Assembly (NCBI RefSeq): GCF_031679605.1
Contig: NZ_CP117522.1
Coordinates: 3,782,001 to 3,846,000 of the forward strand
Reading direction: 5' to 3'
DNA: 64,000 nt
Source of the DNA: Streptomyces luomodiensis
GTDB lineage: Bacteria > Actinomycetota > Actinomycetes > Streptomycetales > Streptomycetaceae
Position numbers and translations under genes: made by a program. Within the stretch, counting starts at the first letter, position 1; every line of letters begins with the position of its first letter. The notes beneath the pieces were generated by a model that ran no database searches, was not told the origin of the DNA, and saw only the letters and a program-made list of their open reading frames with translations. Of this stretch, positions 2,562 through 21,742 are shown in pieces.

Positions 2562-3049
2562 GCCCGCCACCCGACCCGCAGCGTTTGTGGACCATGGTCA
2601 GCTATGAGGGGAGAGGGTGCCGTGCGCAGGCCGGTCACAGGCGAGGGGCATGTCCACTGCAGCCAGATCTGCGCCGCGAGCGACCCGAACAGCGCGAATC
2701 CGGGTCGCCCGCCCTGACACACCACACGCGGAACCGTTGCGAGCCGCCGCGCGTCGAAGCGGTGTGCTGAGGGGGAGTCCCCGTACGGCGGTCATCGGTC
2801 TCGCTGTCGGCCGCGTCGCCGACCGCCCTCTCCGCCGCCCGCGGCCCGCAGCACCCGCCGCCGACGCGACACCCCTCCCAGAGCGTCGGCGGCGCCCCGG
2901 GGGGGCCGAAACGCGTCGTACGGCCGTCGGACGGGACACACCACCGGGCCGACAAGATGAGCAACTTTCCTTGACCGGGACCGGGTTGGTGTCCCAGCGT
3001 GTCCAGCACACCTTCGGCCGCCCCCTCCGAACCCGTGGAAGGAGTGCGG
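2562..3049. other. Intergenic region before the GH3 gene, no gene seen
   Basis: About 490 bases separate the AraC gene from the GH3 start. Open frames exist on both strands, but none has a ribosome site together with a recognisable protein. They are Arg/Pro/Ala-rich, as expected for random frames in GC-rich DNA. The promoter of the GH3 gene must lie here. A DasR-type dre sequence was looked for and not found. Confidence 0.5.
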
Positions 3050-4972: not shown

Positions 4973-5028
4973 CCATCCGGGCGGGCGTACCAGCCCACCC
5001 GGGCGGCGTACCGAGCCCGTGCCCGATC
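4948..5028. repeat. Inverted repeat joining the GH3 3' end to the downstream spacer
   Basis: The 15-base GATCGGGCACGGGCT at 4948-4962 encodes the last codons of the GH3 protein. Its exact reverse complement, AGCCCGTGCCCGATC, lies at 5014-5028. The 51-base spacing allows a long stem that would include the stop codon. It may act as a terminator for either convergent gene, or be a trace of an inverted duplication. Confidence 0.6.
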
Positions 5029-5044
5029 GGGTCCAGGGTCCTTG

Positions 5045-5077
5045 CGGACGTTACGGACGTTACGGATGTTACGGACG
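5045..5077. repeat. 9-bp tandem repeat (about 3.7 copies) at the S37 gene end
   Basis: CGGACGTTA is repeated at 5045, 5054 and 5063 (one substitution), plus a partial copy at 5072. The array overlaps the stop codon of the minus-strand peptidase gene (5069-5071). No function is evident. Confidence 0.7.
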
Positions 5078-6472
5078 CAGCACCGGCTCGCGCTCGATCC
5101 CGCGCCGGTCGAGCTTCGCGTCGTGCCGGGCAAGCGGCTCGCGCGTCTGGCTGACGCCCGCCCACCGCTGTACCTCCGCCGTGGCCTTGGCCTTCTCCTC
5201 GGCCGAGAGCTGGGCGATGTTCGAGCCGTGGTTGCCGCCGGCGACCGTGTAGACGTAAGCGTCCTTGGCGCCCTTGCCGACCCGGAACCGCTCGGCGCCC
5301 CACGGGTCGTTCTGCCCGTAGACGAAGAGCATCCGCTGGGCGTCCTGCCGCACCCAGCGGTCGATGTCCCGCATGGCGGCCGGGTGGAAGCGCATCGGGA
5401 TGTCGCGCGGCACATAGCTGCGCGGGGCGTAGATGCCGGGGTAGCGCAGCAGCCCGGCCAGGTGCGGGGTCGCGAAGGTGGGCGAGCCGAGCTCGGTGCC
5501 CGCCTGGTAGTAGTACGGCGTGTAGGTCTCCAGGCCCTGGTCGGTGTAGGCGGAAAAGCCCGAGATCTCGTCGATGAAGCCGTACAGTTCGTCGGTCGAG
5601 GCGGTGGGGGCGGGGACGTCCCCACAGTCCTTCAGCAGGTGGTACTGCCAGAAGGCCCACACCAGGTCCAGGACGACGTTCTCGTACGCCTTGTCGGCGC
5701 TGCCGACGACGGTGAAGGTCTGCCCCTCGTCGTCCGCCCACTTCTGGTAGCGCGTCACGATCTCGTCGCGCCGCACCAGCGCCTCGTGCTGCACCGCGTT
5801 CAGCTTGTCGCGGCATTCGGCCGTGCCGACGTTCGCGAAGAAGCGGTCGTAGGCGGAGTCCTCCTTGTCGACCACGTCGTTGGGCGCCACGTAGGCGATG
5901 GTCCCGTTCATGTCACGCGGATAGAAACGGCGGTAGTAGGTGGCCGTCATTCCGCCCTTGCTGCCGCCGGTGGCCAGCCAGTTCTTGCCGTAGACGGGCT
6001 TGAGGGCCCGGTAGAGGCGGTGCTGGTCGCTGGCGGCCTGCCAGATGTCCAGCTTGGACCAGTCGGCGGGCTGCGGCCGGGACGGGGTGAAGAAGCGGTA
6101 CTCCAGCGACACCTGGTTGCCGTCCACGATCTGCGTCGGCTCGCTGCGGCGCGGTGCGGTGGTGACGTTGTAGCCCGAGGTGTAGAAGACCGTGGGCCGG
6201 TCGGTGGCCTTGTGCAGCAGGGTGAACCGCTGCTGGAAGGTGCCCTGGGAAGGATGCCGGTGGTCCACCGGCTGGGTGTAGGTGAAGACGAGGAAGCGGT
6301 AGCCCTCGTAGGGCTGTTCCTCGACGAAACGCATGCCGGGAATCGCCAGGACGCGTTCCTTGATGTCCGGCTGGGCGGGGGCGGCCGGTGCCGCGGACGC
6401 GCCGGTGGCACCCGCGCCGACCGCCCCCATCAGTATCGCGAGCGACAGCAGCCATCTGAGCACCTTGCGCAT
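5069..6472 (-). CDS. Secreted S37-family tripeptidyl aminopeptidase
   Basis: 467 residues from ATG 6472, which has GGGGAG eight bases upstream. A Sec signal peptide is clear (MRKVLRWLLSLAILMGAVGA, then ASA-A). The mature protein matches the S37 peptidase family: TGGSKGGMTATYYRRFYPRD carries the nucleophilic serine in a GxSxGG elbow, followed by YVAPNDVVDKEDSAY. The C-terminal FVYGQNDPWGAERF and VAGGNHGSNI contain the likely acid and histidine of the alpha/beta-hydrolase triad. Family members remove tripeptides from secreted proteins during mycelial growth. The gene is single, with its own promoter region at 6473-6655. The stop codon lies in a 9-bp repeat array. Confidence 0.88.
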   Translation of the reverse strand: MRKVLRWLLSLAILMGAVGAGATGASAAPAAPAQPDIKERVLAIPGMRFVEEQPYEGYRFLVFTYTQPVDHRHPSQGTFQQRFTLLHKATDRPTVFYTSGYNVTTAPRRSEPTQIVDGNQVSLEYRFFTPSRPQPADWSKLDIWQAASDQHRLYRALKPVYGKNWLATGGSKGGMTATYYRRFYPRDMNGTIAYVAPNDVVDKEDSAYDRFFANVGTAECRDKLNAVQHEALVRRDEIVTRYQKWADDEGQTFTVVGSADKAYENVVLDLVWAFWQYHLLKDCGDVPAPTASTDELYGFIDEISGFSAYTDQGLETYTPYYYQAGTELGSPTFATPHLAGLLRYPGIYAPRSYVPRDIPMRFHPAAMRDIDRWVRQDAQRMLFVYGQNDPWGAERFRVGKGAKDAYVYTVAGGNHGSNIAQLSAEEKAKATAEVQRWAGVSQTREPLARHDAKLDRRGIEREPVLRP

Positions 6473-6655
6473 GCACTCTCCCCTTGTCGCCGTTATGGCC
6501 CTCGCGACCCGTGAATTCGCACAGGTCGCCGAGAACCTATCCGGGCACACACGCGGGTGGCCAGAGGCTGTTGGCTCACCAACGCGACGCCGGATACGGA
6601 GAGTTGTTACCGTCGCCCTCTTTCGTAGCGGGCTGTGATGGCTCATGCTGCCTGT

Positions 6656-7099
6656 ATGGACCGAGACGAACGGCACGACCGGAGTGAACGGGCCGAGCGG
6701 CTGACGCGGTATCTGAACGAATTGCAGGAACGGATCGACCCTCGCTCGCTGGAGCTGCTGATGCGGCTGCTGCGCGAGCTGAGCACCTCACCGGCCGTCC
6801 GCGGAGGGACGTACGAGCTCGGTATGGGGCCGGAGGAGAAAGAGCTGTTCACCCCCGCTCTCCAGGCCGAGTTGCTGGTGTTGTTCGGCCTGCTCACCTC
6901 CCAGGACGAGCGTGTGGTGGTCGACCTCGGCGACAGTCCGCACGCCAAGGGCATGAAGGTGCTGGTCCCTCAGGAGCGGGCCCAGGACCCCGAATTCCTG
7001 TACCGCCACAAGCAGCGGGTGGCGGCCGAGGCGGAGCAGCGGGAGCGCGACCGGCGGGAGGTGGAGGGCATAGCGAGGGCCAGCGGCATGGAACCGTGA
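6656..7099 (+). CDS. Conserved hypothetical protein, charged, helical
   Basis: 147 residues beginning MDRDERHDRSERAERL. The central part LTRYLNELQERIDPRSLELLMRLLRELST is strongly helical. The C-terminal third is rich in Arg/Glu (RVAAEAEQRERDRREVEGIA) and may form a coiled coil. There are no transmembrane segments, cysteines or known catalytic motifs. The start is uncertain: ATG 6656 is preferred because conserved acidic residues begin there, but GTG 6635 and ATG 6638 are in frame. None has a clear ribosome site, so the transcript may be leaderless. No function is assigned. Confidence 0.6.
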   Translation: MDRDERHDRSERAERLTRYLNELQERIDPRSLELLMRLLRELSTSPAVRGGTYELGMGPEEKELFTPALQAELLVLFGLLTSQDERVVVDLGDSPHAKGMKVLVPQERAQDPEFLYRHKQRVAAEAEQRERDRREVEGIARASGMEP

Positions 7100-7401: not shown

Positions 7402-7423
7402 TCAGGCGACGGCGGGGGCCGTC
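7372..7423. repeat. 22-bp direct repeat duplicating the end of the ABC gene
   Basis: Bases 7372-7393 are identical to 7402-7423, and the latter includes the ABC gene stop codon (7402-7404) and its last six codons. The start-to-start distance is 30 bases. A weaker third copy is at 7328-7346. It looks like local slippage or a short duplication across the stop codon. Confidence 0.75.
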
Positions 7424-10400
7424 TCGCCCATGAAGGTGCGCCACAGCTCGGCGTACCGGCCGTCCCGCGCCACCAGCTCCTCGTGGGTGCCGTCCTCGAC
7501 GACCCGGCCGTGGTCCAGGACCACCACCCGGTCCGCGCGGGCCGCGGTGGTCAGCCGGTGCGCGACGACCAGTGTGGTGCGCCGGCCCGTCAGGCGGTCC
7601 GTGGCCTGGTTGACCAGGGCCTCGGTGGCCAGATCGAGCGCGGCCGTGGCCTCGTCGAGCAGCAGGACGTCCGGGTCGACCAGCTCGGCGCGGGCCAGCG
7701 CGATCAGCTGCCGCTGCCCGGCAGAGAGATTGCGCCCGCGCTCGGAGACCTCGTGCAGATAGCCACCGTCGAGCGACGCCACCATCGCGTGGGCGCCGAC
7801 CGCCCGCGCGGCGGCCTCCACCTCCGCGTCGCTCGCGTCGGGGCGCCCGTAGGCGATGGCGTCCCGCACCGTCCCGGCGAACAGATACGGCTCCTGCGGG
7901 ACCACACCGAGGTGGCGGCGGTACCCGGCGAGGTCGAGCTCGCGCAGATCCGTTCCGTCCACCCGCACGGCGCCCCCGGTGGGGTCGTAGAACCGCGCCA
8001 CCAGCTTGACCAGGGTGGACTTACCGGCCCCGGTCTCCCCGACGAACGCCACGGTCTGCCCCGCGGGGATGGTGAGCGAGATGCCCGCCAGCGCCTCCTC
8101 GCCGTCCCCGTACCGGAACCGCACCTCGTCGAACGTGATCTCGCCGCGCATCCCACGCACCTCGCGCGGGGCGTCGGCGACCGGTGTGGTGGTGGGCTCG
8201 CGCAGCAGCTCCTGGATGCGGCCGAGCGACACGGTGGCCTGCTGATAGCCGTCGAAGACCTGGGAGAGCTGCTGGACGGGGGCGAAGAACAGATCGATGT
8301 AGAGGAGATAGGCCACCAGCGCGCCCGCCGTCAGCGTGCCGTCCCCGACCCGTCCGGCGCCCACGATGAGCACCAGCGCGGACGCCACGGACGACAGCAG
8401 CTGGACGAACGGGAAGTACACCGAGATCAGCCGCTGACCGCGCAACCGCGCCTGGCGGTAGGCGTCGCTGCGTGCCGCGAACCGCTCCCGGCCGGACCGC
8501 TCACGCCCGAACGCCTGCACGATCCGCAGCCCCGCCACGCTCTCCTGGAGATCCGCGTTGACCACGCTCACGCGCTCGCGGGCCAGCTGGTACGCCTTGA
8601 CGCTGCGGCGCCGGAACAGCACGGTGCCGAGGACGAGCGGCGGGAGGGTCAGGAAGACCACCAGCGCCAGCTGCACGTCGATGATGAGCAGCGCGACCAG
8701 GATGCCGAAGAAGGTCAGCAGGCTGACGACGGCGGTGACGAGGCCGGTCTGGAGGAACGTGGACAGCGCGTCGACATCGGTGGTCATCCGCGTCATGATC
8801 TTGCCGGTCAGCTCGCGCTCGTAGTAGTCGAGACCGAGCCGCTGCAACTGCGCGAAGATCTTGACGCGCAGCGCGTAGAGCACCCGTTCACCGGTCCGCC
8901 CGGTCATCCGCGTCTCGCCGATCTGGGCGGCCCACTGGACGAGGACGACGAGCAGCGCGAGCCCGGACGCGGTCCACACCGCCCCGAGCGCGAGCCGCTG
9001 GACGCCCTGGTCGATACCGTGCCGGATCAGCACCGGCAGCAGCAGCCCGGCGATCGCGTCCACGGCGACGAGCAGCAGCGCGAGCGCGAGCGGCGCCCCG
9101 AAACCGCGCAGCAGCCGCCGCAGCCCGTACGCCTCCTCGGGGCGGGTGGCCCGCTCCTCGTCGATGTCGGGCGTATCGGTGGCGGGCGGCAGGGCGGCGA
9201 CCTTCGCGAGCAGCTCGGGGGTGGCGGGCATCCCGGACAACGCCCCGGCGAACCCGGGCCCGGCCACGGCCCCCGCCCCGGCCGCCGGCGCCCCCGCCTT
9301 ACGTCCCTCACCATCGGACCGCACCCACAACTCGGGCGTCACGCCCTGCTCGGGGGTCGTGTCACGGCTCACGCCCTGCTCGGGGGCCACACCTCGCTCG
9401 CGGGTCGCGCCCCGCTCGGGGCCCGTCCCGGCCCCGTCGGGCCGGGGCCCCGGCGCGGGATACGGCTCGCTCGGTCCCTCGGCGCCCGCCGCACCGCCGG
9501 ACGCCCCGGCGAGCCCTGTCGCCCCCGCCCGGTCTCCGGCGCGGGCGTGGTCGGGGTCGTCCCCGCCGTGCGGGCGGCACCGCTCCTCGCCACTGCCGTC
9601 GGACCGCGCCCACAGCTCGGGCATCAGCCCGTCGCGCCCCGTTTCGCCCGTGGCGTGCGCCGGGTCGTCCCCGCCGCGCGGGCACAGGTCCGCGCCCGCG
9701 TCGGGGCGGCCCCCGTGGCCGTCACCGGTCCCCACCTCCGCGGCACCTGGCTCCGCTCGGTCCGCGACCGGGGCGTCGGCCCGGCCGGCCGCCTCCGGAC
9801 CACCGTTCTCCTGCCGCTCACCGTCACGGCACGGCGCGGTCGGCCCCGCCGGAGCGGCCTTGCCCCCGAAGGCGCCGGTGCGGCCCGCCTCCGTCCGGCC
9901 CTGCGCACCCCCGCGATGCGCCGGGTCGTCCCCGCCCCGCGCCCGCACGCCCGCCGCCGGGTGCGGGCACCCCTCGCGGTCGCGCGCCGGGCCGTCGCCA
10001 TCGGCGGACGGCTCCCCGTCGAGGTACGGCTCGGCCAGCCCCGTCGCGGCGGACTCCCCGCCGAACGCACCGGCGAACCCCGCCGCGCGCGTGGCGCCGC
10101 CGCGCGGCTCGGTATGGGCCGGGGCCGGGGCGGGCGCGTCCGCGCCCCGAGCCGCCGTGCCGTCGGCGCCCGGGGCGGCGGGCGCGGCGGGCGCGTCGTC
10201 CGTCAGCAGGCTCCGGTACACGGCGCTCCGCGCCCTCAGCTCCTCGTCCGTGCCCACGTCCACGACCCGGCCCCGCTCCATGACCGCTATGCGGTCGGCG
10301 AGGGCGAGCGTGGAGGGGCGGTGGGCGATCAGCAGCGTCGTACGGCCTGCCATGACGCCGCGCAGCGCCTCGTGGATCTCGTGCTCGACGCGTGCGTCCA

Positions 10401-11979
10401 CCGCCGAGGTGGCGTCGTCGAGGATGAGCAGCCGGGGGTCGGTGAGGATCGCGCGGGCCAGGGCCAGCCGCTGGCGCTGGCCGCCGGAGAGGGTCAGCCC
10501 CTGTTCGCCGACCTCGGTGTCGTAGCCGTCCGGCAGTGCCGTGATGAAACCGTCGGCCTGCGCGGCGCGCGCGGCGGCCCGGATGCGTTCCTCGGACGCG
10601 TCCGGCAGCCCGTAGGCGAGGTTGGCGCGCACCGTGTCGGAGAAGAGGAAGCTGTCCTCCGGCACCAGTCCGATCGCCCCGCGCAGCGAGTCGTACGTCA
10701 GCTCCCGCACATCGTGGCCGCCGATCCGCACCGCCCCCGACGACACGTCGTAGAAGCGCGGCAGCAGCATGGACAGCGTCGACTTGCCGCTTCCGGAGGC
10801 GCCCACGACGGCCAGGGTCTCGCCCGGTTCGATCCGCAGGGACACCTCGGACAGCACCGGGCGCTCGGGGTCGTAGCCGAAGCTCACCCGGTCGAACTCG
10901 ACCGTCGCGGGGGCGTCCTCGGGGAGCTCCCGGGCGTCGGGGCGCTCGTCGATGACCGGCTCGGTGTCGATCAGCTCGAAGACGCGCTCGACCCCGGCCC
11001 GCGCCTGCTGCCCGACGGTCAGGATCATCGTGAGCATCCGCACCGGCGCCACGAGCTGGGCGAGGTAGGTGGAGAAGGCCACGAAGGTGCCGAGGGTGAT
11101 CTGGCCCCGCGTGGCCATCCAGCCGCCGAGCGCCAGCATGGCGACCTGGCCGAGGGCGGGGACGGCCTGGAGGGCGGGGGTGTAGCGGGAGTTCAGCCGT
11201 ACGGTCCGCAGCCGGGCGGCGAACAGCCGGCGGCCGACCTCCCGCAGCTTGTCGGTCTCCTGCGCCTCCTGCCCGAACCCCTTGACCACCCGGACACCGG
11301 TCACGGCCCCGTCGACGACCCCCGCGACGGCGGCCGCCTGCCCCTGGGCGTACCAGGTGGCGGGGAAGAGCCGGACGCGGCTGCGCGAGGCGAGGATCCA
11401 CAGGGCGGGGGCGACGGCGAGGGCGACGACGGTGAGCAGCGGTGACAGCACCGCCATCACGACGAGGGAGACCAGGAAGAGCAGTACGTTGCCGATCATC
11501 ATCGGCACCATGAAGAGCAGGCCCTGGATCAGCTGGAGGTCGCTGGTGGCCCGGCCGATGATCTGGCCGGTGGAGAGGTTGTCCTGCCGCCTGCCGTCGA
11601 AGCGGGTGATCGCCGCGAACATATCGGTGCGCAGCGCGTGCTGGACGTCGAGGGCGAGCCGTCCGCCGTAGAAACGGCGGATGTAGGTGAGGACGTACAC
11701 CACGAGCGCGGCGACGATCAGCAGGGTGGCCCAGGGGGCGAGTGACCGGTCGTGCCGGACGATCACATCGTCGATGATCAGCTTCGGCACCAGTGGGACG
11801 AGCGCCATGACGGCCATCCCGACGAGCGAGGCGCCCAGCGCGAGCAGCACATCGCCGCGGTACCGCCAGCAGTAGCCGAACAGCCGCCGTACCCAGCCCT
11901 GTCCTGCATCCGCGCCGCCGGCGTCCGCTCCGCCCGCTTTGACCGCTCCGCCCGTTTCGCCAGCCGCTACGTCCGCCAC
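7402..11979 (-). CDS. Fused two-half ABC exporter (TMD-NBD-linker-TMD-NBD)
   Basis: 1525 residues from GTG 11979, chosen because GGAGG lies seven bases upstream; a longer frame to 12024 has none. The first half has six membrane segments (about residues 30-330) and an NBD with Walker A GASGSGKST near 393, signature LSGGQ and Walker B LLILDDATSAVD. The position of the catalytic glutamate is Asp (residue 522). The second half (from about residue 940) has a full set: GETGAGKST, LSAGQ, and LLLDEAT with Glu 1443. One degenerate site paired with the altered partner signature is the known pattern of heterodimeric exporters such as TM287/288 and LmrCD, so here both subunits appear fused. The linker (about 595-935) is Ala/Gly/Pro-rich and repetitive. 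It is a single gene; substrate, drug or lipid, is unknown. Confidence 0.9.
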   Translation of the reverse strand: MADVAAGETGGAVKAGGADAGGADAGQGWVRRLFGYCWRYRGDVLLALGASLVGMAVMALVPLVPKLIIDDVIVRHDRSLAPWATLLIVAALVVYVLTYIRRFYGGRLALDVQHALRTDMFAAITRFDGRRQDNLSTGQIIGRATSDLQLIQGLLFMVPMMIGNVLLFLVSLVVMAVLSPLLTVVALAVAPALWILASRSRVRLFPATWYAQGQAAAVAGVVDGAVTGVRVVKGFGQEAQETDKLREVGRRLFAARLRTVRLNSRYTPALQAVPALGQVAMLALGGWMATRGQITLGTFVAFSTYLAQLVAPVRMLTMILTVGQQARAGVERVFELIDTEPVIDERPDARELPEDAPATVEFDRVSFGYDPERPVLSEVSLRIEPGETLAVVGASGSGKSTLSMLLPRFYDVSSGAVRIGGHDVRELTYDSLRGAIGLVPEDSFLFSDTVRANLAYGLPDASEERIRAAARAAQADGFITALPDGYDTEVGEQGLTLSGGQRQRLALARAILTDPRLLILDDATSAVDARVEHEIHEALRGVMAGRTTLLIAHRPSTLALADRIAVMERGRVVDVGTDEELRARSAVYRSLLTDDAPAAPAAPGADGTAARGADAPAPAPAHTEPRGGATRAAGFAGAFGGESAATGLAEPYLDGEPSADGDGPARDREGCPHPAAGVRARGGDDPAHRGGAQGRTEAGRTGAFGGKAAPAGPTAPCRDGERQENGGPEAAGRADAPVADRAEPGAAEVGTGDGHGGRPDAGADLCPRGGDDPAHATGETGRDGLMPELWARSDGSGEERCRPHGGDDPDHARAGDRAGATGLAGASGGAAGAEGPSEPYPAPGPRPDGAGTGPERGATRERGVAPEQGVSRDTTPEQGVTPELWVRSDGEGRKAGAPAAGAGAVAGPGFAGALSGMPATPELLAKVAALPPATDTPDIDEERATRPEEAYGLRRLLRGFGAPLALALLLVAVDAIAGLLLPVLIRHGIDQGVQRLALGAVWTASGLALLVVLVQWAAQIGETRMTGRTGERVLYALRVKIFAQLQRLGLDYYERELTGKIMTRMTTDVDALSTFLQTGLVTAVVSLLTFFGILVALLIIDVQLALVVFLTLPPLVLGTVLFRRRSVKAYQLARERVSVVNADLQESVAGLRIVQAFGRERSGRERFAARSDAYRQARLRGQRLISVYFPFVQLLSSVASALVLIVGAGRVGDGTLTAGALVAYLLYIDLFFAPVQQLSQVFDGYQQATVSLGRIQELLREPTTTPVADAPREVRGMRGEITFDEVRFRYGDGEEALAGISLTIPAGQTVAFVGETGAGKSTLVKLVARFYDPTGGAVRVDGTDLRELDLAGYRRHLGVVPQEPYLFAGTVRDAIAYGRPDASDAEVEAAARAVGAHAMVASLDGGYLHEVSERGRNLSAGQRQLIALARAELVDPDVLLLDEATAALDLATEALVNQATDRLTGRRTTLVVAHRLTTAARADRVVVLDHGRVVEDGTHEELVARDGRYAELWRTFMGETAPAVA
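9240..10200 (-). repeat. Degenerate coding repeats in the ABC fusion linker
   Basis: The linker contains recurring peptide blocks. GGDDPAH or GGDDPDH occurs three times. TGAFGGK/AGAFGGE/AGASGG blocks are each followed by an EPYLDGE-, APCRDGE- or EPYPAPG-like segment. MPELWARSDG and TPELWVRSDG also recur. The order suggests several decayed copies of one unit of about 70-80 residues. Boundaries are approximate. Confidence 0.65.
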
Positions 11980-12160
11980 CCGTGAACCTCCCGATCCGCA
12001 CACTCTTCCGGAAGGCGGCAACACACTGAGGTGCGGATTTCATCCTGCCGCAACAAACGGACCGGGGCGCGTCAGGCCACCGGACCCCGGACCGCCCCTG
12101 CTCACCCGTCCTGATCAGGGTGGCCCCGGCCGGGCCGGGATGTCGTCGGCCTGCTGCGCA

Positions 12161-14270: not shown

Positions 14271-15498
14271 TCCGCTCCGCCACCTGCCCGGCCCCCCGCG
14301 TGGGACGTCCCCCGCGGACGGGCCGGCCCCCGCGACGGACGACCCGGCTGCCGCCCTTCCGCGGCCGCCCCGCCTCGTAGCTGTGGAACGCCGCCCAGCA
14401 GATCAGCAGCGCCACCGCGAACACCGGCAGCCACAGCAGCCGGTCGACCACCCAGCCGGGGCCGTCGGGCACGGTGTGCAGTCCGGCCAGCGGTCCGGCC
14501 GGCCGCAGGGCGGTCACGGTGACCGCCATCATCGCGGTCTGGTGCCACAGGAATATCGTCATCGCGGAGAGGTTGACCAGCGCCACCGCCGCCCACGCGG
14601 CGGGCCGCGCCATCGCCCGGCGCAGCGGACCGCGCAGCAGCAGGGCCGCGCCGCACTGGGCGAGGCCGAAGGTGACGGCGGCCAGGGTGGGTGGGTTGAG
14701 GTTGGAGACCGGGGCGCCGGGCACCCCGACCATGGCCGCCGGATAGCCGCCGACCAGAACGAGCCCGGCGGTGACGACCACGCCCCCGATCAGCAGCACC
14801 CACCCGGCCAACCGCCCGGCCAACCGCCCGCGCGGCCGGCCCTGGCCCCACATGGCGCCCAGGCAGTACGGAACCAGCCAGCCCGCCGGCAGGTTGATCC
14901 AGCCGAGCCAGGCCGGGCCGTCGAAGCCGAACCGGACCAGGTCCACATGCAGTACGACGGCGAGCGGCCACAGCGGATGCAGCCGCGCCACCAGCGGGGT
15001 CGCGGCCGTGAGCACCGCGTAGACCAGCAGGAACCACAGCGGGGACAGGACGAGTTCGAGCAGCGTGTGCACGGTCAGCAGGCTCACCCCGGAGCCGAGC
15101 AGCACCCCCGCCGCCACGGCCCACACGGTGAGCACGACGGCGACGGGCCGGAACAGCCGGGCCAGCCGGGCCCGCAGCCACCGCCGGTAGCCGACGCCCC
15201 GGGCGCGGGCGGCGGCGTAGCCCTTGGCAGCCGTGTGTCCGCCGACCAGGAAGAACAGCGCGAGGGTCTGGAACACCCAGGAGACCGGGGTGAGTTCGGG
15301 CTGGTACCGCAGCGGGCTGGCCGCGCGCAGGGTGCCGCTGTCGGCGACGAGCGCGGTCACCAGCCAGTGGCCGAGCACGACACCAAGGATGGCGACGGCC
15401 CGCAGGGCGTCCACGGCACGGTCGCGGCCGGGCGGGGTGGCGGCGTCGATCCGCCGCACGAGGGCACGCACCCGGCCAAGGCCACGGAGGTCACGCAT
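14263..15498 (-). CDS. Acyltransferase family 3 integral membrane protein
   Basis: 411 residues from ATG 15498. There are about ten predicted membrane segments. The family start RDRAVDALRAVAILGVVLGHWLV contains the conserved Arg and His of acyltransferase-3 proteins. ALFFLVGGHTAAKGY is the second conserved loop. These enzymes O-acylate sugars, peptidoglycan, antibiotics or lipids at the membrane, usually passing an acyl group outward. The C-terminus is a basic Arg/Gly-rich tail. The gene begins inside the last codons of the upstream secreted hydrolase and ends inside the kinase start. This makes it part of a tightly coupled operon and suggests that hydrolase and acyltransferase act on the same extracellular substrate. 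Substrate unknown. Confidence 0.87.
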   Translation of the reverse strand: MRDLRGLGRVRALVRRIDAATPPGRDRAVDALRAVAILGVVLGHWLVTALVADSGTLRAASPLRYQPELTPVSWVFQTLALFFLVGGHTAAKGYAAARARGVGYRRWLRARLARLFRPVAVVLTVWAVAAGVLLGSGVSLLTVHTLLELVLSPLWFLLVYAVLTAATPLVARLHPLWPLAVVLHVDLVRFGFDGPAWLGWINLPAGWLVPYCLGAMWGQGRPRGRLAGRLAGWVLLIGGVVVTAGLVLVGGYPAAMVGVPGAPVSNLNPPTLAAVTFGLAQCGAALLLRGPLRRAMARPAAWAAVALVNLSAMTIFLWHQTAMMAVTVTALRPAGPLAGLHTVPDGPGWVVDRLLWLPVFAVALLICWAAFHSYEAGRPRKGGSRVVRRGGRPVRGGRPTRGAGQVAERNV

Positions 15499-16414
15499 CA
15501 CGGCCCGCCACGATGCGGCTCATGCTCGCCAGGGCGGTGGACCCGGGCTTGAGGTAGTCGCTGTGCCCGGCGTCCCCCGCGTCGAAGACCCGTGCGCCGA
15601 ACTCCCGCGAGACCGGGTCGGTACCGAAGCCGACGGTCGTGACCAGCAGCGGTATCCGCACATGCGGCACCCCGCCGATCCAGTCGCTCCCGCCCCGCCC
15701 GGCCCAGACGGTGGCCCGGGTGCGCAGCTGCCGGGCGCTGTCGAACCCGGTGCCGGGGCTGCCGTACAGGACGATGTCCTCGGCGTCCAGTCCATGTGCG
15801 GCCCTGGCGCAGACCACGGAACCGTAGGAGTGGCACAGCAGCGAGATCCGGGCCCCGGGCTTGGCCGCGGCCAACTCCCGGACGAACGAGGTGAGTCGGG
15901 GCGCCGCGCTGTCGGCCGTCCCCGTGGTCAGCACCTCGGGTTCCACGGTGCCGGGCGTCCTGTACCCGAGCCAGCTGACGACGGCGGCCTTCTCCCCCAG
16001 CCGACGGCTCAGCGCGAGGGCCCCGTTCCGGAGCCGCGCGTAGGTGTCCAGGCTGGTGTCCGACCCCGGTACCAGCACCGCGACCCGCCGGGCGCGCCCC
16101 AGGTCCCCGTACACCTCGACGGCACGCCCCCCGTCCCGCCCGTCGAAGGACAGAAAGCGCCGCCCCGGCTTCCGCATGGTCCGCAGGGCGGCCGCCCGCC
16201 GCCGGTCCCCGTGCCGGTCGGCCATCCGCTCGGCCGCCCGGATCCCCTCCCGGTTGGCCGCGTACCGCTCCTGAAGCCCCGCGACGCTCACCGGCCCCAG
16301 CGCCACGGGCTTCGGCGCCGGCACCTCACCGGGCCCGGAGGCCCCCACCAGGGGTACCACCACCGAGGCGGTGACCAGCGCCGCGAGCAGGGCGCGACGA
16401 AGACGGGACGCCAT
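15491..16414 (-). CDS. Secreted alpha/beta hydrolase (DUF1023 type)
   Basis: 307 residues. The signal peptide MASRLRRALLAALVTASVVVPLVGA is followed by a mature domain. LLCHSYGSVVCARAA contains the nucleophile Ser in a GxSxG-like elbow (H-S-Y-G). VAVLVPGSDTSLDTY is the oxyanion-hole region. DAGDAGHSDYL is a likely His site. This DUF1023 group in actinobacteria includes uncharacterised esterases or amidases. It is the first gene of the hydrolase-acyltransferase-kinase-regulator operon. The ribosome site GGAAGGA, eight bases before ATG 16414, lies in one arm of an inverted repeat (16422-16456), so translation could be controlled by folding of the leader. Confidence 0.85.
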   Translation of the reverse strand: MASRLRRALLAALVTASVVVPLVGASGPGEVPAPKPVALGPVSVAGLQERYAANREGIRAAERMADRHGDRRRAAALRTMRKPGRRFLSFDGRDGGRAVEVYGDLGRARRVAVLVPGSDTSLDTYARLRNGALALSRRLGEKAAVVSWLGYRTPGTVEPEVLTTGTADSAAPRLTSFVRELAAAKPGARISLLCHSYGSVVCARAAHGLDAEDIVLYGSPGTGFDSARQLRTRATVWAGRGGSDWIGGVPHVRIPLLVTTVGFGTDPVSREFGARVFDAGDAGHSDYLKPGSTALASMSRIVAGRDA

Positions 16415-16456: not shown

Positions 16457-16636
16457 TACGAAGCCGGCCGTGTGGTCGGCGTCCCACCAGGGAGTGCATC
16501 TGGGGGGTAGCTCTCAGGTATGACGGGGACGAGGATGCGCTCCGATGCGCCGTTGACGTACCGTCACGCGCCGCACGATGGTCATACAGCCGACTCACGG
16601 TGAGTGATCCGCCGATGACAGCACGGAGGAACGTGC

Positions 16637-16888
16637 ATGAATGAAGTCGCCCCCATGCCATGGGGCCTGACCCGTATGAAGCCATTCCCATCAGGCGCAC
16701 ACCTTCCCCACGCCACTGTCGTGCTCGATCCAGAGACACAGACCGGATGCTGGTCCGTGGAGGACGGCGACCTCGCCCCCGTGGCGGCCAAGCACAAAAG
16801 ATCCGAAACCTCGAAAGAGACCAAGCCGAAGACCAGCTTGGACGGCAATACGGACGAGGGGAGCGACCAGAGCGGGGACAACGACTGA
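16637..16888 (+). CDS. tgmA: ATP-grasp-modified RiPP (graspetide) precursor peptide
   Basis: 83 residues; ATG 16637 has AGGA six bases upstream. The leader part includes MPWGLTRMKPFPSG and ATVVLDPETQTGCW, matching the GRASP_targ type of precursor found next to ATP-grasp ligases. The C-terminal core begins near KHKRSETSKETKPK. It is rich in Thr/Ser (S56, T58, S59, T62, T66, S67), then has a D69-G70-N71 turn, then acidic residues D73, E74, D77, D81 and D83. This order of hydroxyl donors, an Asp-Gly loop and carboxylate acceptors fits side-chain ester cross-links plus aspartimide formation at D69. The stop TGA overlaps the ligase start (TGATG), so the two are translationally coupled. Ring pattern and cleavage site are not known. 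Confidence 0.85.
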   Translation: MNEVAPMPWGLTRMKPFPSGAHLPHATVVLDPETQTGCWSVEDGDLAPVAAKHKRSETSKETKPKTSLDGNTDEGSDQSGDND

Positions 16889-17868
16889 TGAGCCGAGCCG
16901 GGAAGGACTCGGCGGTGCTCGTGGTGACCGCGTTGGATGATGTCACCGCAGACCTCGTCATCCAGGTGCTCAACGAGCGGAAAGTCCCCGCCGTCCGACT
17001 GGACCTCGGCGACTTCCCCACATCCGTGACGACGGACGCGTATCTCGGCCAGACCGGAATCAGCGGCCACGTGATCACGGAGACCCGCGCCCTGGACCTG
17101 GCGAGGGTCCGGTCGGTCTACTGGCGGCGCCCGAGTCCCTACACCAGTTCCGCGGACTTGACCGAGCAAGACGCCCAGTGGTGCGTCGAACAGGCCAGAT
17201 ATGGGCTCGGTGGCATTCTGGCCGCGCTTCCGGGCGCCCATTACGTGAACCACCCGTGGCGCAACCGCGACGCCGAATACAAACCCGCCCAGCTCGCGAC
17301 GGCAGCGCGGTGCGGACTGCCCGTGCTACCGACTTTAATCACCAACGACCCTGGTAAGGCGACCCGGTTCGCCATCGACCACGGTCCGGTGGTCTACAAA
17401 CCACTACGGAACAGCGACTACCTCAGCGAGGACGCCCAAGCTCTCACGGTGTGGGTCGACGAGGTGGACCCGGTGAGCATCGGCCCAGGTCTGGCGCAGA
17501 CCATGCACCTCTTCCAACGACGGCTGGACAAGGTGGCCGACATACGGCTCACAGCGGTGGGCGAGCACGTCTTCGCCGTACGCATCGACGGGTCACCTGG
17601 TCTTGACTGGCGCCGCGACTACGACGCACTGCGCTACACCCTGGTCGAGCCACCGCCGGCGGTGGTCAAGGGTGTTCACGCCTATCTGGACGCCTTCCAT
17701 CTGAGCTTTGGCGCCTTCGACTTCGGTCTCGACCGCGCTGGCCGCTGGTGGATGTACGAATGCAACCCGAACGGCCAGTGGGCGTGGTTCCCGGCCCACA
17801 TCACCGAACGAATCGCCCAAGCCCTCGCAAACCAACTCCAGTGCCGAGGACAGTTACATGACTGCTGA
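16888..17868 (+). CDS. tgmB: ATP-grasp ligase maturing the RiPP precursor
   Basis: 326 residues. The N-terminal domain begins VLVVTALDDVTADLVIQVLNERK. The ATP-grasp fold follows, with VVYKPLRNSDYL (nucleotide-binding lysine region), DIRLTAVGEHVFAVRIDG and the metal-binding end FDFGLDRAGRWWMYECNPNG, holding the E and N expected to bind Mg2+. The family phosphorylates Asp/Glu side chains of the precursor and joins them to Thr/Ser or Lys as esters or amides. Codon 150 (17335-17337) is TTA, decoded only by the bldA tRNA in Streptomyces. Product formation may therefore be tied to development. Its end overlaps the methyltransferase start by 11 bases. Confidence 0.92.
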   Translation: MSRAGKDSAVLVVTALDDVTADLVIQVLNERKVPAVRLDLGDFPTSVTTDAYLGQTGISGHVITETRALDLARVRSVYWRRPSPYTSSADLTEQDAQWCVEQARYGLGGILAALPGAHYVNHPWRNRDAEYKPAQLATAARCGLPVLPTLITNDPGKATRFAIDHGPVVYKPLRNSDYLSEDAQALTVWVDEVDPVSIGPGLAQTMHLFQRRLDKVADIRLTAVGEHVFAVRIDGSPGLDWRRDYDALRYTLVEPPPAVVKGVHAYLDAFHLSFGAFDFGLDRAGRWWMYECNPNGQWAWFPAHITERIAQALANQLQCRGQLHDC

Positions 17869-18991
17869 TACCGCCTCACTGCGCCGCGCTCTCGCGGCGA
17901 AGATCGGCGGCGGTTCGCTGAAGGACCCCGCCTGGCGAGCCGCCGTCGGGTCCGTACCCCGGGAGCTCTTCCTCGGCGCGGGCCTCTTCCGCCCCAATGG
18001 GTCGCTGTGGGAACCGGTTCGTCGCGCCACGGTCGGAGAGGAGGAGTGGCACCGATTGGCCTACGCCGACACCACGTGGGTGACCCAGGTGGAGGGTGTT
18101 GACGCCACCGAGGCGGTCGGTCCGCTGACGGGCCGGCCGACATCCTCCTCGACGCTGCCCTCCCTCGTCGTCCGCACGCTTGAAGTGGCCGGCATCCACG
18201 ACGGCGACAAGGTGTTGGAAATCGGCACCGGAACCGGTTACTCGACCGCGGTCATCTGCCACAGGCTGGGCGACGCCAACGTCACCTCCATCGAGTACGA
18301 CAGTCGTCTGGCGGAGAGCGCCGCCGCCAGCCTTCGCACGGCCGGTTACGCCCCGACCCTGGTGACCGGCGATGGCCTGCACGGATACCGGGATGGCGCC
18401 GAGTACGACGCCGTGGTCGCCACCTGCGCGGTACGGCACATCCCCCGCTCCTGGCTCTGGCAGCTCCGCGACGGCGGAACCATCACCGCACCCCTCGGCG
18501 GCTGGATGGTGGCGTCCGGCCTGATCCGCCTCACACTGGGCGACGACGGCGTTGCCGAGGGCCGCTTCTCCGGGGACCGTGTCTCCTACATGCTGGCCCG
18601 CCCCCACGAACGCCCGCCCCGCCCGACGTTCTACCCGCTTCCTGGCGAAGCCAGGCGGTCCCGTGTCAACCCCGGCCTCTTGCAGGACTGGACAGCACAC
18701 TTCGTCGCCCAGCTTGCAGCTCCCTCGGCAGAGCTGGTGATGTCGGGCGAGGAGGTGATCCTGGTCGACGTGGCGACCGGCTCCCAAGCGTGGACCGAGC
18801 CCGCAGGAGACGGCTGGTCGGTTCACCAGGACGGCCCGCTCCGCCTCTGGGATCAGGTTGAGGACGCGCTCGCGACGTGGCAGACCGCCGGCTCTCCGGA
18901 CCAGACCGCCTTCGGAATGACGGTCACCGACGAGACGCAGCGGGTGTGGCTCGGCGACCCGGCCGGTCCGAGTTGGAGGCTCCCGACCTGA
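17858..18991 (+). CDS. tgmC: PIMT-type methyltransferase of the graspetide cluster
   Basis: 377 residues; ATG 17858 has GAGGA nine bases upstream. SAM motif I is VLEIGTGTGYSTAVICHRLG near residue 115, set in a protein L-isoaspartate methyltransferase-like domain (motif II region YDAVVATCAVRHIP). Unlike housekeeping PIMT (about 210 residues), it has a C-terminal extension of about 150 residues. In fuscimiditide-type pathways such enzymes methylate an Asp of the cross-linked peptide, which then closes to an aspartimide. Overlap with tgmB and the Asp-Gly in the core support the same role here. Function is inferred from family and context; no separate protease or transporter is adjacent. Confidence 0.87.
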   Translation: MTADTASLRRALAAKIGGGSLKDPAWRAAVGSVPRELFLGAGLFRPNGSLWEPVRRATVGEEEWHRLAYADTTWVTQVEGVDATEAVGPLTGRPTSSSTLPSLVVRTLEVAGIHDGDKVLEIGTGTGYSTAVICHRLGDANVTSIEYDSRLAESAAASLRTAGYAPTLVTGDGLHGYRDGAEYDAVVATCAVRHIPRSWLWQLRDGGTITAPLGGWMVASGLIRLTLGDDGVAEGRFSGDRVSYMLARPHERPPRPTFYPLPGEARRSRVNPGLLQDWTAHFVAQLAAPSAELVMSGEEVILVDVATGSQAWTEPAGDGWSVHQDGPLRLWDQVEDALATWQTAGSPDQTAFGMTVTDETQRVWLGDPAGPSWRLPT

Positions 18992-19002: not shown

Positions 19003-19206
19003 TCAGGGGATGAGGTGGTCGAGGCCGCCCGCCCGCCTTGACGCCGACGATGAAGGCGGCGAGGCGGGCGGGGTGCTGGTGAGGATGGTGCAGGGGGCGT
19101 CGCTCTCACGGAGGAGGACGGCGCTGGCGCCGCGTGCGAATTCGACGCAGTCGGGATCTTGCGCGCCCGAAAATGACGACTTCCGCCGGTTGAACAACGT
19201 GCTCAC
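19003..19206 (-). CDS. DUF397 protein with a scrambled C-terminal segment
   Basis: 67 residues; GTG 19206 lies two bases after the stop of the upstream DUF397 gene. The N-terminal half is a good DUF397 match (RRKSSFSGAQDPDCVEFA, then VLLRESDAPCTILTSTP). The expected helix is not in this frame: translated reads [15 protein letters not shown]. The +1-shifted frame of the same DNA reads RLAAFIVGVKAGG, the normal DUF397 ending seen in the neighbour. The original frame resumes with GLDHLIP. Two compensating indels, near 19066-19073 and 19026-19036 in G/C runs, explain this. DUF397 proteins such as BldB act in development with XRE partners. The product may be non-functional or altered. Confidence 0.72.
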   Translation of the reverse strand: MSTLFNRRKSSFSGAQDPDCVEFARGASAVLLRESDAPCTILTSTPPASPPSSSASRRAGGLDHLIP

Positions 19207-19208
19207 GG

Positions 19209-19424
19209 CTACGCCCTCTCTATTCGGCCCGCGAACGCGTCGAACTCCCCCGCCTTCGCGGCGGCGAGGAACATCGCGAAGCGGCTCGGATCGAGGGAGA
19301 GAACGGCTCGGGGCTCGTCACTCTCCCGCAGAAGGACCCCGCCGGACCCGCGCGCCACTTCGACGCAGTCCGGCCCTTGGGCACCCGAGAAGCTCGACTT
19401 CCGCCACTGAATCGGAGTACTCAT
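19209..19424 (-). CDS. DUF397 protein (BldB-like family)
   Basis: 71 residues from ATG 19424, with GAGAGG seven bases upstream. It shows the full family pattern: IQWRKSSFSGAQGPDCVEVA, GGVLLRESDEPRAVLSL, then FAMFLAAAKAGEFDAF. Known relatives are BldB and WhiJ-linked small proteins, thought to bind or modulate the partner XRE regulator. It sits 11 bases after the XRE gene (19436-20290) on the same strand and 2 bases before a second DUF397 gene, so all three form one operon. Confidence 0.87.
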   Translation of the reverse strand: MSTPIQWRKSSFSGAQGPDCVEVARGSGGVLLRESDEPRAVLSLDPSRFAMFLAAAKAGEFDAFAGRIERA

Positions 19425-19435
19425 GACCACACCTC

Positions 19436-20290
19436 TCACAGTTCACGCGCGATGTGATGGATGAGCTGCCGCGATTCCTCCGTGCCGAGCGCCGCGCCCT
19501 CAGCCTTGTCAAGCAGCTCTCGAAACCTCTGAAGCTCGGCCTCGGCGTCCAGAAAGCGGCCTCCGACCACGCTGTCCACCTGAACCGTGTCCAATTGGGG
19601 AACCGCCGCGCCAGCGTACAAAATTGGATGAGTGGTCTCAACGAATTGCTCGTTGGTGAAGGGGACGACCCTCAAGGTGATCGATGGGTTGCCGGAGACC
19701 TCCATCAAACGCTCAAGCTGCTTACGGGCCACCTTCCGGCCCCCGAACCGCATGCGCAGCGCCGCCTCATGAATCGTCGCCGTCAGGCGGACCGGCTCCT
19801 CCCGCTCCAGAACCACCTGCCTCTTCATCCTGTGCTCAACACGCGTGTTGATCTCGTCCGCAGGCAGTGGTGGAGCGCCGCCCTGGAAGAGGACACGTGC
19901 GTAGTCCTCGGTCTGCAACAGCCCCGGGATGACCATCGCCTGCATGGAGCGCAGGTACACCGCGTGGTGCTCCATCTCGGCCACATCCAGAAACCCGGGT
20001 ACAAGGATGCCTCGATACTCGTCCCACCAGAACTGCCCCCGCCGTTCCTCGGCGATGGCGCACAGGGCGTCGACCAACGCGGTGTCCGCACATGCGTAGA
20101 AGGTGGCGAGACGGCGGATGCGCTCACCGCTCACGCCAATGCGCCCGGCTTCGATGTTGCTCACCCTGGCCTGGTCAACGCCCAGCAAGCCAGCGGTCTC
20201 GCGAGCCGTCCTGCCCGCGCGTTCACGCATCTTGCGTAACTCGGTGCCGAGGCGCACCTGTCGGGCCGTAGGGGTGTCCCTTGGCGGCAT
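19436..20290 (-). CDS. XRE-family regulator with DUF5753 ligand domain (WhiJ-like)
   Basis: 284 residues from ATG 20290. The helix-turn-helix is at about residues 12-65 (LGTELRKMRERAGRTARETAGLLGVDQARVSNIEAGR is the region; the key recognition helix is VDQARVSNIEAG). The remaining 200 residues are the DUF5753 domain, with FWWDEYRGILVPGFLDVAEME, GLLQTEDYARVLF and the TLRVVPF motif. Such regulators pair with DUF397 partners and an anti-sigma-like ATPase in Streptomyces (whiJ type) and often repress development genes. The gene diverges from the HATPase gene at 20434. The start has GGGAGGG eleven bases away, slightly long. A longer N-terminus to 20362 is open but less likely. Confidence 0.9.
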   Translation of the reverse strand: MPPRDTPTARQVRLGTELRKMRERAGRTARETAGLLGVDQARVSNIEAGRIGVSGERIRRLATFYACADTALVDALCAIAEERRGQFWWDEYRGILVPGFLDVAEMEHHAVYLRSMQAMVIPGLLQTEDYARVLFQGGAPPLPADEINTRVEHRMKRQVVLEREEPVRLTATIHEAALRMRFGGRKVARKQLERLMEVSGNPSITLRVVPFTNEQFVETTHPILYAGAAVPQLDTVQVDSVVGGRFLDAEAELQRFRELLDKAEGAALGTEESRQLIHHIAREL

Positions 20291-20369
20291 GACTACGTCA
20301 GCCCTCCCTTGATTCGCCACCCACATGAGTGAGACAGCACGGAAAACGTTGTTCCGGTGCAACCGTGGG

Positions 20370-20392
20370 TCGTACCGTCTGTGATCGTACCG
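20370..20392. promoter_or_regulatory. Paired TCGTACCG direct repeat in the XRE/HATPase intergenic region
   Basis: TCGTACCG occurs at 20370-20377 and 20385-20392, spaced 15 bases apart. It lies between the divergent XRE and ATPase genes and is a candidate binding site for the XRE protein. No proof beyond position and repetition. Confidence 0.35.
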
Positions 20393-20433
20393 CTACACAA
20401 ACCACCCAGGTGCACTCCCAAGGGAGGACATCC

Positions 20434-20880
20434 ATGTACGAACTCCACGACGAACCCGACCGCCGCTACACGATGCGCGCCCCCAACATCCCCGAAACCG
20501 CCAAGGTCGCACGGGAGATGGTCTCGGGGCTGCTCTCGGCCACCGGACACCCCTCCCTCATCGACACCGCCCGCCTCCTCGTCTCCGAGCTGGTGTCCAA
20601 CGTGCATCTGCACACCAAGGTCCCGCTCCTGATGCTGGAGGCCACGGTCCGCGCGGACCAACTCCACGTATCCGTACGGGACGAGGACCCCTCCGGGATG
20701 CCCAATACGACAACGCGACCCACTCCACACGCCGAACACGGCCGCGGCTTACTCCTGGTCCAGGCGTACGCGGACGCATGGGGCACCGTCTGGCACGGCG
20801 GGCTGCACCCGCGTGGCAAGAGCGTGTGGTTCGAGCTGGCCGACCAGCCGCGAGCACGGTCCGGTTCGTCCAACGCCTGA
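20434..20880 (+). CDS. Anti-sigma-factor-like ATP-binding protein (HATPase_c_2)
   Basis: 148 residues; ATG 20434 has AGGGAGGA five bases upstream. GHKL ATPase motifs are visible: TARLLVSELVSNVHLHT (N-box, with H where many have A), VSVRDEDPSGMP (G1 box), and HGRGLLLVQAYADAWGT (G2 box). Proteins of this RsbW/SpoIIAB-like family are very numerous in Streptomyces and may bind sigma factors or anti-sigma antagonists. Divergence from an XRE/DUF397 operon is the standard arrangement of whiJ-type sets. Partner sigma factor is unknown. Confidence 0.87.
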   Translation: MYELHDEPDRRYTMRAPNIPETAKVAREMVSGLLSATGHPSLIDTARLLVSELVSNVHLHTKVPLLMLEATVRADQLHVSVRDEDPSGMPNTTTRPTPHAEHGRGLLLVQAYADAWGTVWHGGLHPRGKSVWFELADQPRARSGSSNA

Positions 20881-20959: not shown

Positions 20960-21742
20960 ATGGCAACGTCCCTCGCCGTGGCAGACATCGACGGCATCAC
21001 CATCACCCGGCTCTCCGAGCGCCCGGCGCTGATCGACCGCGTCTATGACATCGACGGGAACTGGCCCGCCTTCCTCCCCCATGATCTGGTCGGGAACGCC
21101 CTGCTGAACCAGGTGCCGGCGGACTTCCCCGAGTACTGCGTGGTAGCGACCGACGGCGACCGGGTGGTGGCGCGGGGGCTCAGCGTGCCGTTCAACGCCG
21201 AGCTCGACGGGCGGGAGGAAATGCCCGACCAGGGCTGGAGCCGCGTACTGGCGTGGGCGTTCCGCGATCGGCGCCGCGGGCAGCCGCCGACGGCGGCCAG
21301 CGCGCTGGAGATCACGGTGGACAACGCGTACCTGGGCGGCGGTCTGTCCTACCCCATGCTGGCGGCGATGCGGGAGGCGGTCCGGGAGCAGGGCCACGAG
21401 TCGCTGCTGGCCCCGGTCCGCCCGACGGCCAAGCACCGGCAACCGCACGTCCCCATGGCCGACTACATCCTCCAGCTGCGCGACGACGGACTGCCGAGCG
21501 ACCCCTGGCTACGGGTGCACGTCAAGAGTGGCGGCACCATCGAGAAGGTCGCGCCCGCGTCGATGACGGTCAGCGGATCCCTGGCTCAGTGGCGGCAGTG
21601 GACCGACCTGCCCTTCGACCGCGACGGTGACGTCGAGGTGCCCGGTGCGCTGGTCCCGGTGCGGTGCGACCTCACCCATGACCGCGCGGTCTACGTCGAA
21701 CCCAACGTGTGGATCCGGCACGGCGCACGCAGCCACCCCTAA
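20960..21742 (+). CDS. GNAT-fold N-acetyltransferase-like protein
   Basis: 260 residues from ATG 20960, the only upstream in-frame start because a stop lies at 20945. It contains a GNAT-like core: YCVVATDGDRVVARGLSVPF (strand pair), then ALEITVDNAYLGGGLSYPMLAAMREAVREQG in place of the usual R/QxxGxG/A acetyl-CoA loop. The AKHRQPHVPMADY part resembles a late GNAT segment. The acetyl-CoA loop is not canonical, so activity is uncertain. The stop codon overlaps that of the convergent SRPBCC gene. It follows the HATPase gene by 79 bases but has no strong ribosome site. Function is unknown. Confidence 0.65.
   Translation: MATSLAVADIDGITITRLSERPALIDRVYDIDGNWPAFLPHDLVGNALLNQVPADFPEYCVVATDGDRVVARGLSVPFNAELDGREEMPDQGWSRVLAWAFRDRRRGQPPTAASALEITVDNAYLGGGLSYPMLAAMREAVREQGHESLLAPVRPTAKHRQPHVPMADYILQLRDDGLPSDPWLRVHVKSGGTIEKVAPASMTVSGSLAQWRQWTDLPFDRDGDVEVPGALVPVRCDLTHDRAVYVEPNVWIRHGARSHP

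Follow-up and report, generated by a model that had tools for sequence, protein, structure and literature searches.

A group 13 graspetide cluster in Streptomyces luomodiensis with a predicted four-rung core and predicted six-residue Asp-Gly loop

What does a compact cluster of three genes in Streptomyces luomodiensis make, and can the shape of its product be read from the precursor? The cluster lies at positions 16637-18991 of the window, by which we mean the whole stretch of 64,000 nucleotides that was analysed, located at 3.78-3.85 Mb of a 10.04-Mb single contig. It consists of three uninterrupted, overlapping open reading frames (ORFs), which encode in order a precursor peptide, an ATP-grasp ligase and a homologue of protein isoaspartyl methyltransferase (PIMT). 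Judged by its sequence, it is a group 13 graspetide cluster, that is, a graspimiditide cluster of the fuscimiditide type. We think it probable that this pathway gives a product with four nested esters and a six-residue loop, in which D69 would be methylated and converted to an aspartimide. The proposal is based on gene content, family membership, conservation and the register counts given below, and its chemistry is taken from homologues.

All features of the cluster are on the forward strand. The precursor gene (the A gene; 83 aa, positions 16637-16888) has its ATG 7 bases beyond a probable ribosome-binding site, GGAGG, at 16625-16629. Its product scores 65.3 bits with TIGR04186 (GRASP_targ; cut-off 25) and 52.5 bits with PF14408 (Actino_peptide). 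The ligase gene (the B gene, tgmB; 326 aa, 16888-17868) overlaps the precursor gene by 1 base. It encodes an ATP-grasp ester ligase of the SAV_5884/tgmB subfamily (TIGR04187, 398.5 bits; cut-off 350), which aligns over nearly its full length with the solved chains 9bou (MvdD-like) and 7m4s (AMdnB). We rejected a microviridin maturase identity for this enzyme: the MvdC and MvdD equivalog models give 130.5 and 121.4 bits, below their cut-offs of 425 and 475. The methyltransferase gene (the M gene, tgmC; 377 aa, 17858-18991) overlaps the ligase gene by 11 bases, and its product, a PIMT-type peptide aspartyl methyltransferase, scores 459.5 bits with TIGR04188 (cut-off 380). Residues 92-214 can be aligned with 1DL5, and the S-adenosylmethionine-binding motif EIGTGTG is found at residues 121-127 (18218-18238). 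The protein has a C-terminal extension with a WXXXGXP motif, W341-Q-T-A-G-S-P347 (18878-18898), which is typical of PIMTs associated with ribosomally synthesized and post-translationally modified peptides (RiPPs) (PMC13001092).

Group 13 clusters are recognized by a GRASP_targ precursor beside its maturase, a maturase of the subfamily named above, a RiPP-associated PIMT with the extension and motif just described, and a core that can build nested esters between Thr/Ser and Asp and offers an Asp-X site in its loop. The first three are present here, and by the register counts the precursor has the sequence capacity for the fourth. An earlier note, made from the DNA alone, had recognized the three genes and proposed a fuscimiditide-type ester stem around an Asp-Gly loop; its coordinates were right, all three products exceed their TIGR cut-offs, and the class is supported by family models and literature. 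The imiditide or pamtide class, in which the precursor stays linear and there is no ATP-grasp enzyme, was rejected because an uninterrupted ATP-grasp gene lies between the precursor and PIMT genes.

To which residues would the esters be made? The predicted core comprises residues 56-83 (SETSKETKPKTSLDGNTDEGSDQSGDND, positions 16802-16885), with D69-G70 (16841-16846) as the predicted methylation and aspartimide site within the loop S67-T72. We compared 93 distinct precursor frames, taken from fetched loci and the window, which fall into core families A (39, including the window), B6 (11), B8 (3), C10 (3), D (10) and E (21), with six others. For each register we added the index of the donor and that of the acceptor, both counted from the C-terminus. 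In a profile of 34 family A members, all have Asp at 0, 2 and 10, Thr at 17, 21 and 25, and Ser or Thr at 27, and 33/34 also have Asp at 6. At a register sum of 27, every Asp in the 39 family A sequences has a Thr or Ser mirror partner (156/156); the runner-up register reaches 95/197, and other registers for this family were rejected on these pairing counts. When Thr is the only donor allowed, the count falls to 120/156 because residue 56 is mostly Ser. Among 67 database proteins matching the precursor, 255/261 Asp are paired at the best register and 142/199 at the runner-up; all four pairs are retained in 79 of the 85 distinct cores, and Asp-Gly at 69-70 likewise in 79/85. These results predict the pairing S56-D83, T58-D81, T62-D77 and T66-D73 around the six-residue loop S-L-D-G-N-T.

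The residues named in the earlier note (S56 to S67, D69-G70-N71, D73, E74, D77, D81 and D83) are numbered as it claimed, but its proposal that E74 is an acceptor is unlikely. Among 34 relatives this position holds Q in 19 cases and E in 14, and among 67 database homologues it holds E in 41 cases and Q in 21. In addition, the fuscimiditide ligase ThfB did not esterify Glu in place of Asp, while it accepted Ser donors and fully closed engineered loops of 4-12 residues (PMC12291112). Thus E74 is probably not an acceptor, and four rungs with a six-residue loop are chemically plausible. Turning to other donors, we note that K60, K63 and K65 vary among relatives. Lys as an amide donor, as in microviridin, was therefore rejected.

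The other families can be read in a similar way. With Thr or Ser donors, B6 pairs 44/44 Asp at sum 27, B8 12/12 at sum 29, C10 9/12 at sum 27, family D 48/51 at sum 27 (30/51 with Thr alone) and family E 72/84 at sum 41, against 54/84 at 40. When the donor segments of seven representatives were shuffled and only Thr was counted as a donor, p was 0.051 for A, 0.043 for B6, 0.099 for B8, 0.050 for C10, 0.017 for D, and 0.015 and 0.047 for E. The combined p is 3.4e-5, a value that overstates independence since the families are related.

Natural variants offer further tests of the rungs. Three precursors (P0010, P0012 and P0035) end two residues early, at D81; they have lost D83 and carry Pro at 56, with their three remaining pairs intact. 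The three are alike and may represent one event. In P0050 the predicted loop is two residues longer, and four rungs remain at sum 29. In L018, an extra Asp at 8 has a Thr at the mirror place, 19. A rung also appears to be exchanged between families: the Thr/Asp pair is at 25/2 in A, where 23 is mostly Lys, and at 23/4 in B6, where 2 is Gln or Asn. Two further variants stand apart: L030 has D-S in place of D-G, and the C-terminus of P0021 is unrelated, which may reflect a frame error.

Several observations weigh against this pairing and against its extension to other families. The exchange between A and B6 is incomplete, as B6 keeps Ser at 25 in 10/11 and A has Glu at 4 in 19/34. One acceptor is replaced by Gly while the Thr stays in L026/P0051 (D77 to G) and in P0056 (D73 to G), and a Thr 19 from the end, present in 27/34 family A members, has no acid partner. 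B6 and B8 are fully paired also four registers lower, at sums 23 (33/33) and 25 (9/9), although these lower registers count fewer Asp. Family D is hardly decided with Thr/Ser donors (45/52 at sum 29), C10 leaves one Asp in four unpaired, and the window's core, to which the p of 0.051 belongs, reaches only 3/4 with Thr donors. L109 and L110, from a phylum-wide search described below, are paired equally well by several registers and do not discriminate; a nine-residue loop in L109 was dropped for this reason. Moreover, the tests are all comparative, and neither a mass nor a structure was found for this family. The paired residues are near-invariant within family A, so that a large share of the support is drawn from homologous, non-independent families. 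Finally, reported graspimiditide loops have 10-12 residues (PMC12291112).

Weighing both sides, we lean, with modest confidence, towards a distinct short-loop type of graspimiditide with four rungs and a six-residue Asp-Gly loop, occurring in several genera of Streptomycetaceae. The same confidence applies to the idea that group 13 cores obey a general mirror code, in which donors and acceptors are symmetric about the loop, so that the sequence would reveal connectivity, the number of rungs and the length of the loop (6, 8, 10, 12 or 14 in the scored families). One graspetide survey found the connectivity of new precursor clusters mostly unpredictable, with several candidate residues (PMC8939145). 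With a sequence rule for rungs and loop size, the roughly one thousand reported group 13 clusters could be grouped according to the structure expected of them.

We propose the following pathway. The precursor leader would dock on the ATP-grasp enzyme, probably through the segment PWGLTRMKPFP (residues 8-18, 16658-16690): the motif P-[WF]-G-x-x-[RH]-M-x-[PSL]-[FY]-P is present in 39/39 family A precursors, and we liken it to the conserved RPFG motif of the ThfA leader (PMC13003496). The enzyme would then phosphorylate core Asp side chains and join them to Thr and Ser hydroxyls, with one water lost per bond, and the four nested esters would form a ladder-like stem that closes the loop. The methyltransferase may recognize this closed stem-loop and methylate D69, after which the amide of G70 would expel methanol to give the aspartimide. 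In characterized homologues, Thr-Asp esters form the stem-loop, the loop Asp is methylated, and the linear precursor is left unmodified (PMC13001092, PMC10787088). The leader would probably be cut near K54-R55 by an unlinked protease; a basic pair precedes residue 56 in 38/39 family A precursors, which suggests cleavage there, and the core would then start at its first donor and end at its last acceptor. No native protease is known for graspimiditides (PMC12291112).

The distribution of the methyltransferase bears on the second half of this pathway. Its homologue lies beside the ligase in 27/27 family A loci (cut by the contig end in L018 and truncated in L077). Across 91 loci, the window and a second L072 frame being left out, 64 have both the enzyme and Asp-Gly in the last 36 residues of the precursor, 14 have the enzyme without Asp-Gly, 12 have neither, and one (L086, 3.2 kb long, its ligase match broken) has Asp-Gly without the enzyme (p = 3e-7, counting loci and not events). 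Eleven of the 14 are B6 precursors with Asp-Ser, and Ser is allowed after the loop Asp in graspimiditides (PMC13001092). The twelve loci with neither (L042-L045, L047-L049, L052, L054, L055, L065 and L066) have cores without Asp-Gly that are mostly rich in Ser and Thr; the L048 precursor frame is cut short, and the ORF that follows in L043 lies on the opposite strand. In a ligase tree made by a quick method they form one clade nested in the methyltransferase-bearing E group, so the association may reflect a single loss; the same tree puts family A on one side of a branch with a support of only 39. By sequence, this clade is likely a natural loss of the aspartimide step.

Would the aspartimide itself be the final product? 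A rival compatible with the four-ester stem is that the physiological product carries isoaspartate: the aspartimide would be a passing form, and the role of the methyltransferase would be to isomerize D69 and let the small loop relax. Purified SsfA(BM) consisted of isoAsp/Asp forms, and when graspimiditide aspartimides are hydrolysed, isoAsp is favoured (PMC13001092, PMC10787088). The aspartimide predicted here may hydrolyse mainly to isoaspartate, and a six-residue loop would be more strained than one of ten. On the other side, three of the four characterized products were isolated with an intact aspartimide (PMC13001092), and the sequence holds nothing that decides stability. We give the isoaspartate product a chance only a little short of even.

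Could the core instead form a fuscimiditide-like bicycle, in which T62-D73 and T58-D77 close a ten-residue loop, K63-T72, and D81 and D83 stay free? This loop would equal the ten residues of fuscimiditide and amycolimiditide (PMC12291112), and T58, T62, D73 and D77 are all conserved. However, its register, sum 31, pairs only 78/157 Asp in the 39 relatives where sum 27 pairs all of them; by this comparison the best-supported register leaves six residues and not the 10-12 of a long loop. Under the bicycle, the conserved S/T56, T66, D81 and D83 would also serve no purpose, and it gives no reason why S56 and D83 are lost together. Thus we regard it as unlikely.

A cluster that has decayed or is unexpressed seems more doubtful still. 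Broken relatives do occur: L077 has truncated ligase and methyltransferase matches, the ligase match of L039 extends over two frames, and so does the ligase of another cluster in the same genome. In the window, however, the three genes are uninterrupted and above their cut-offs, and across family A purifying selection acts more strongly on the core than on the leader; the ratio of nonsynonymous to synonymous differences is 0.29 for the last 28 residues versus 0.53 for the leader (35/39 sequences, leaders aligned without gaps). Least probable is an ordinary isoaspartate repair enzyme placed beside a graspetide pair by chance: the PCMT domain does match (90.8 bits), but the repair models give 78-89 bits against cut-offs of 159-359, so by score this is not a repair enzyme, and the TIGR04188 score, the long C-terminal part with WXXXGXP and the company of the ligase throughout family A argue the same way.

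The same genome holds three further loci. The cluster with the split ligase (L012, C1:4055000-4064000, at 3026-3976 and 3859-4967) is a second graspimiditide cluster, whose precursor frame is continuous with an upstream HATPase frame: no stop codon separates them, and by eye the junction lacks a start codon. On this sequence the cluster is decaying or fused. The third (L013, C1:4582000-4591000, at 5830-7059) belongs to family C10 with a predicted ten-residue loop, and its precursor, also in frame with an upstream HATPase, has its own GTG behind a GGAGGAG site. L014 (C1:8793000-8803000, around 4571-5830) has an ATP-grasp gene and a 63-aa precursor ending TTTSTAGSKTHFDD; a PIMT match is absent within its 10-kb stretch, and this core type recurs in eight further loci (L113-L117 and L119-L121). 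In Streptomyces longispororuber (L077, 5453-6937), the truncated enzymes accompany a core with D-D for D-G, as if enzymes and core were decaying together.

Candidate regulatory genes adjoin the cluster. Downstream on the reverse strand are two DUF397 small proteins, probable regulator partners (19003-19206, PF04149 30.9 bits; 19209-19439, 54.6 bits), and an XRE-type regulator with DUF5753 (19436-20362; PF19054 161.7 bits, PF13560 52.4 bits), followed on the forward strand by a histidine-kinase-like ATPase, HATPase_c_2, a possible regulatory neighbour (20329-20880; PF13581 32.4 bits). The DUF397 and DUF5753 genes, absent from the earlier note, form a pair described as neighbours of group 13 clusters (PMC13097080). 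Beside ATP-grasp loci, DUF5753 regulators have been reported too, and the HATPase family is listed as frequent there (PMC8939145). By blastp the window's XRE-DUF5753 regulator is matched in 8/27 family A loci versus 1.3 expected (Poisson 7e-5); the expectation derives from 40 DUF5753 matches per 10.04 Mb, a background of this one genome obtained by a different search method. The HATPase-like group occurs in 4/27. A 260-aa ORF at 20960-21742 has no Pfam match at E 0.001.

The earlier note had reported no adjacent protease or exporter. For the immediate neighbours this stands, with the additions that a divergent Abhydrolase_8 gene (15491-16414) adjoins the cluster and that a double ABC exporter ORF (7402-12024, reverse strand; 1540 aa, two ABC_membrane and two ABC_tran stretches with a long low-complexity middle) ends about 4.6 kb upstream. 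The hydrolase is matched in one (L021) of the 67 loci L012-L078, and the exporter in 0/27 family A loci. We scanned flanks of up to 6 kb at the 27 loci for ORFs of at least 90 aa at 30% identity; no linked protease or exporter is among the families recurring in at least 4 loci, a scan in which a varied protease could be missed. Apart from the regulator and the HATPase-like group described above, the families in at least four loci were, judged by coordinates, shadow frames over the three genes.

Is the product new? As a kind it is well known, since 'putative ATP-grasp-modified RiPP' is already the database name of many homologous precursors, tgmB and tgmC are the annotation of related genes in plasmid records among the matches listed, and 962, 1326 or 1432 group 13 clusters have been counted, depending on the survey (PMC13001092). 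At E 1e-3 or better the precursor matches 67 database proteins, and 67 of the 199 genomes from the genus contain a match to it; both counts include the window's own. Ligase relatives were taken from 64 loci of named genomes, those nearest the window being mostly Streptomyces. A phylum-wide family search found matches inside the genus only (11/396 genomes), a weak negative given that about 14 candidates were scored per genome; it added 14 new loci, two with cores of this general kind. The earlier claim of an undescribed product thus fails for the kind but may hold for the individual peptide, which looks uncharacterized in the literature searched: no description was found there, the largest graspimiditide survey lying outside its reach, nothing was found on SAV_5884, and the core string TSLDG gave no graspetide paper by title.

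How does the predicted product compare with known systems? No solved-structure relative was found for the window's class of core using P0001, two other cores or a ten-core profile, and the fuscimiditide structure was retrieved only by a query built from its published residues. Family B6 (for example L094, and L012 of the same genome) shares the sum-27 register and the six-residue loop, and differs in having Asp-Ser instead of Asp-Gly and its Thr/Asp rung at 23/4 rather than 25/2. Fuscimiditide from Thermobifida fusca (ThfA/ThfB/ThfM) is made from a precursor by one ATP-grasp enzyme and one PIMT homologue and has a nested Thr-Asp ester stem, T7-D18 and T3-D22, following the same rule (PDB 7LI2 sequence; PMC12291112). 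Its Asp-Gly, like that of the window under the predicted pairing, lies three residues past the innermost donor (T7/D10 and T66/D69), and D10 is the sole loop Asp in 7LI2; however, it has two esters and a ten-residue loop where we predict four and six. SsfA(BM) from Streptomyces sp. F-3 shares the three genes and has Asp81-Gly82-Asn83 like D69-G70-N71, whereas it carries five esters, of which one is believed to involve the C-terminal carboxylate (PMC10787088). Its D81 is 16 residues from the end, the peptide ending at 97, versus 14 in the window, a spacing that, from residue numbers only, would fit family B8 with an eight-residue loop. Amycolimiditide (AmdA/B/M), for which an NMR structure (PDB 8DYM) has been published, resembles our prediction in its four nested esters and its loop aspartimide (PMC13001092, PMC12291112), and differs from it in closing a loop of ten residues (PMC12291112) where the window's core would close one of six.

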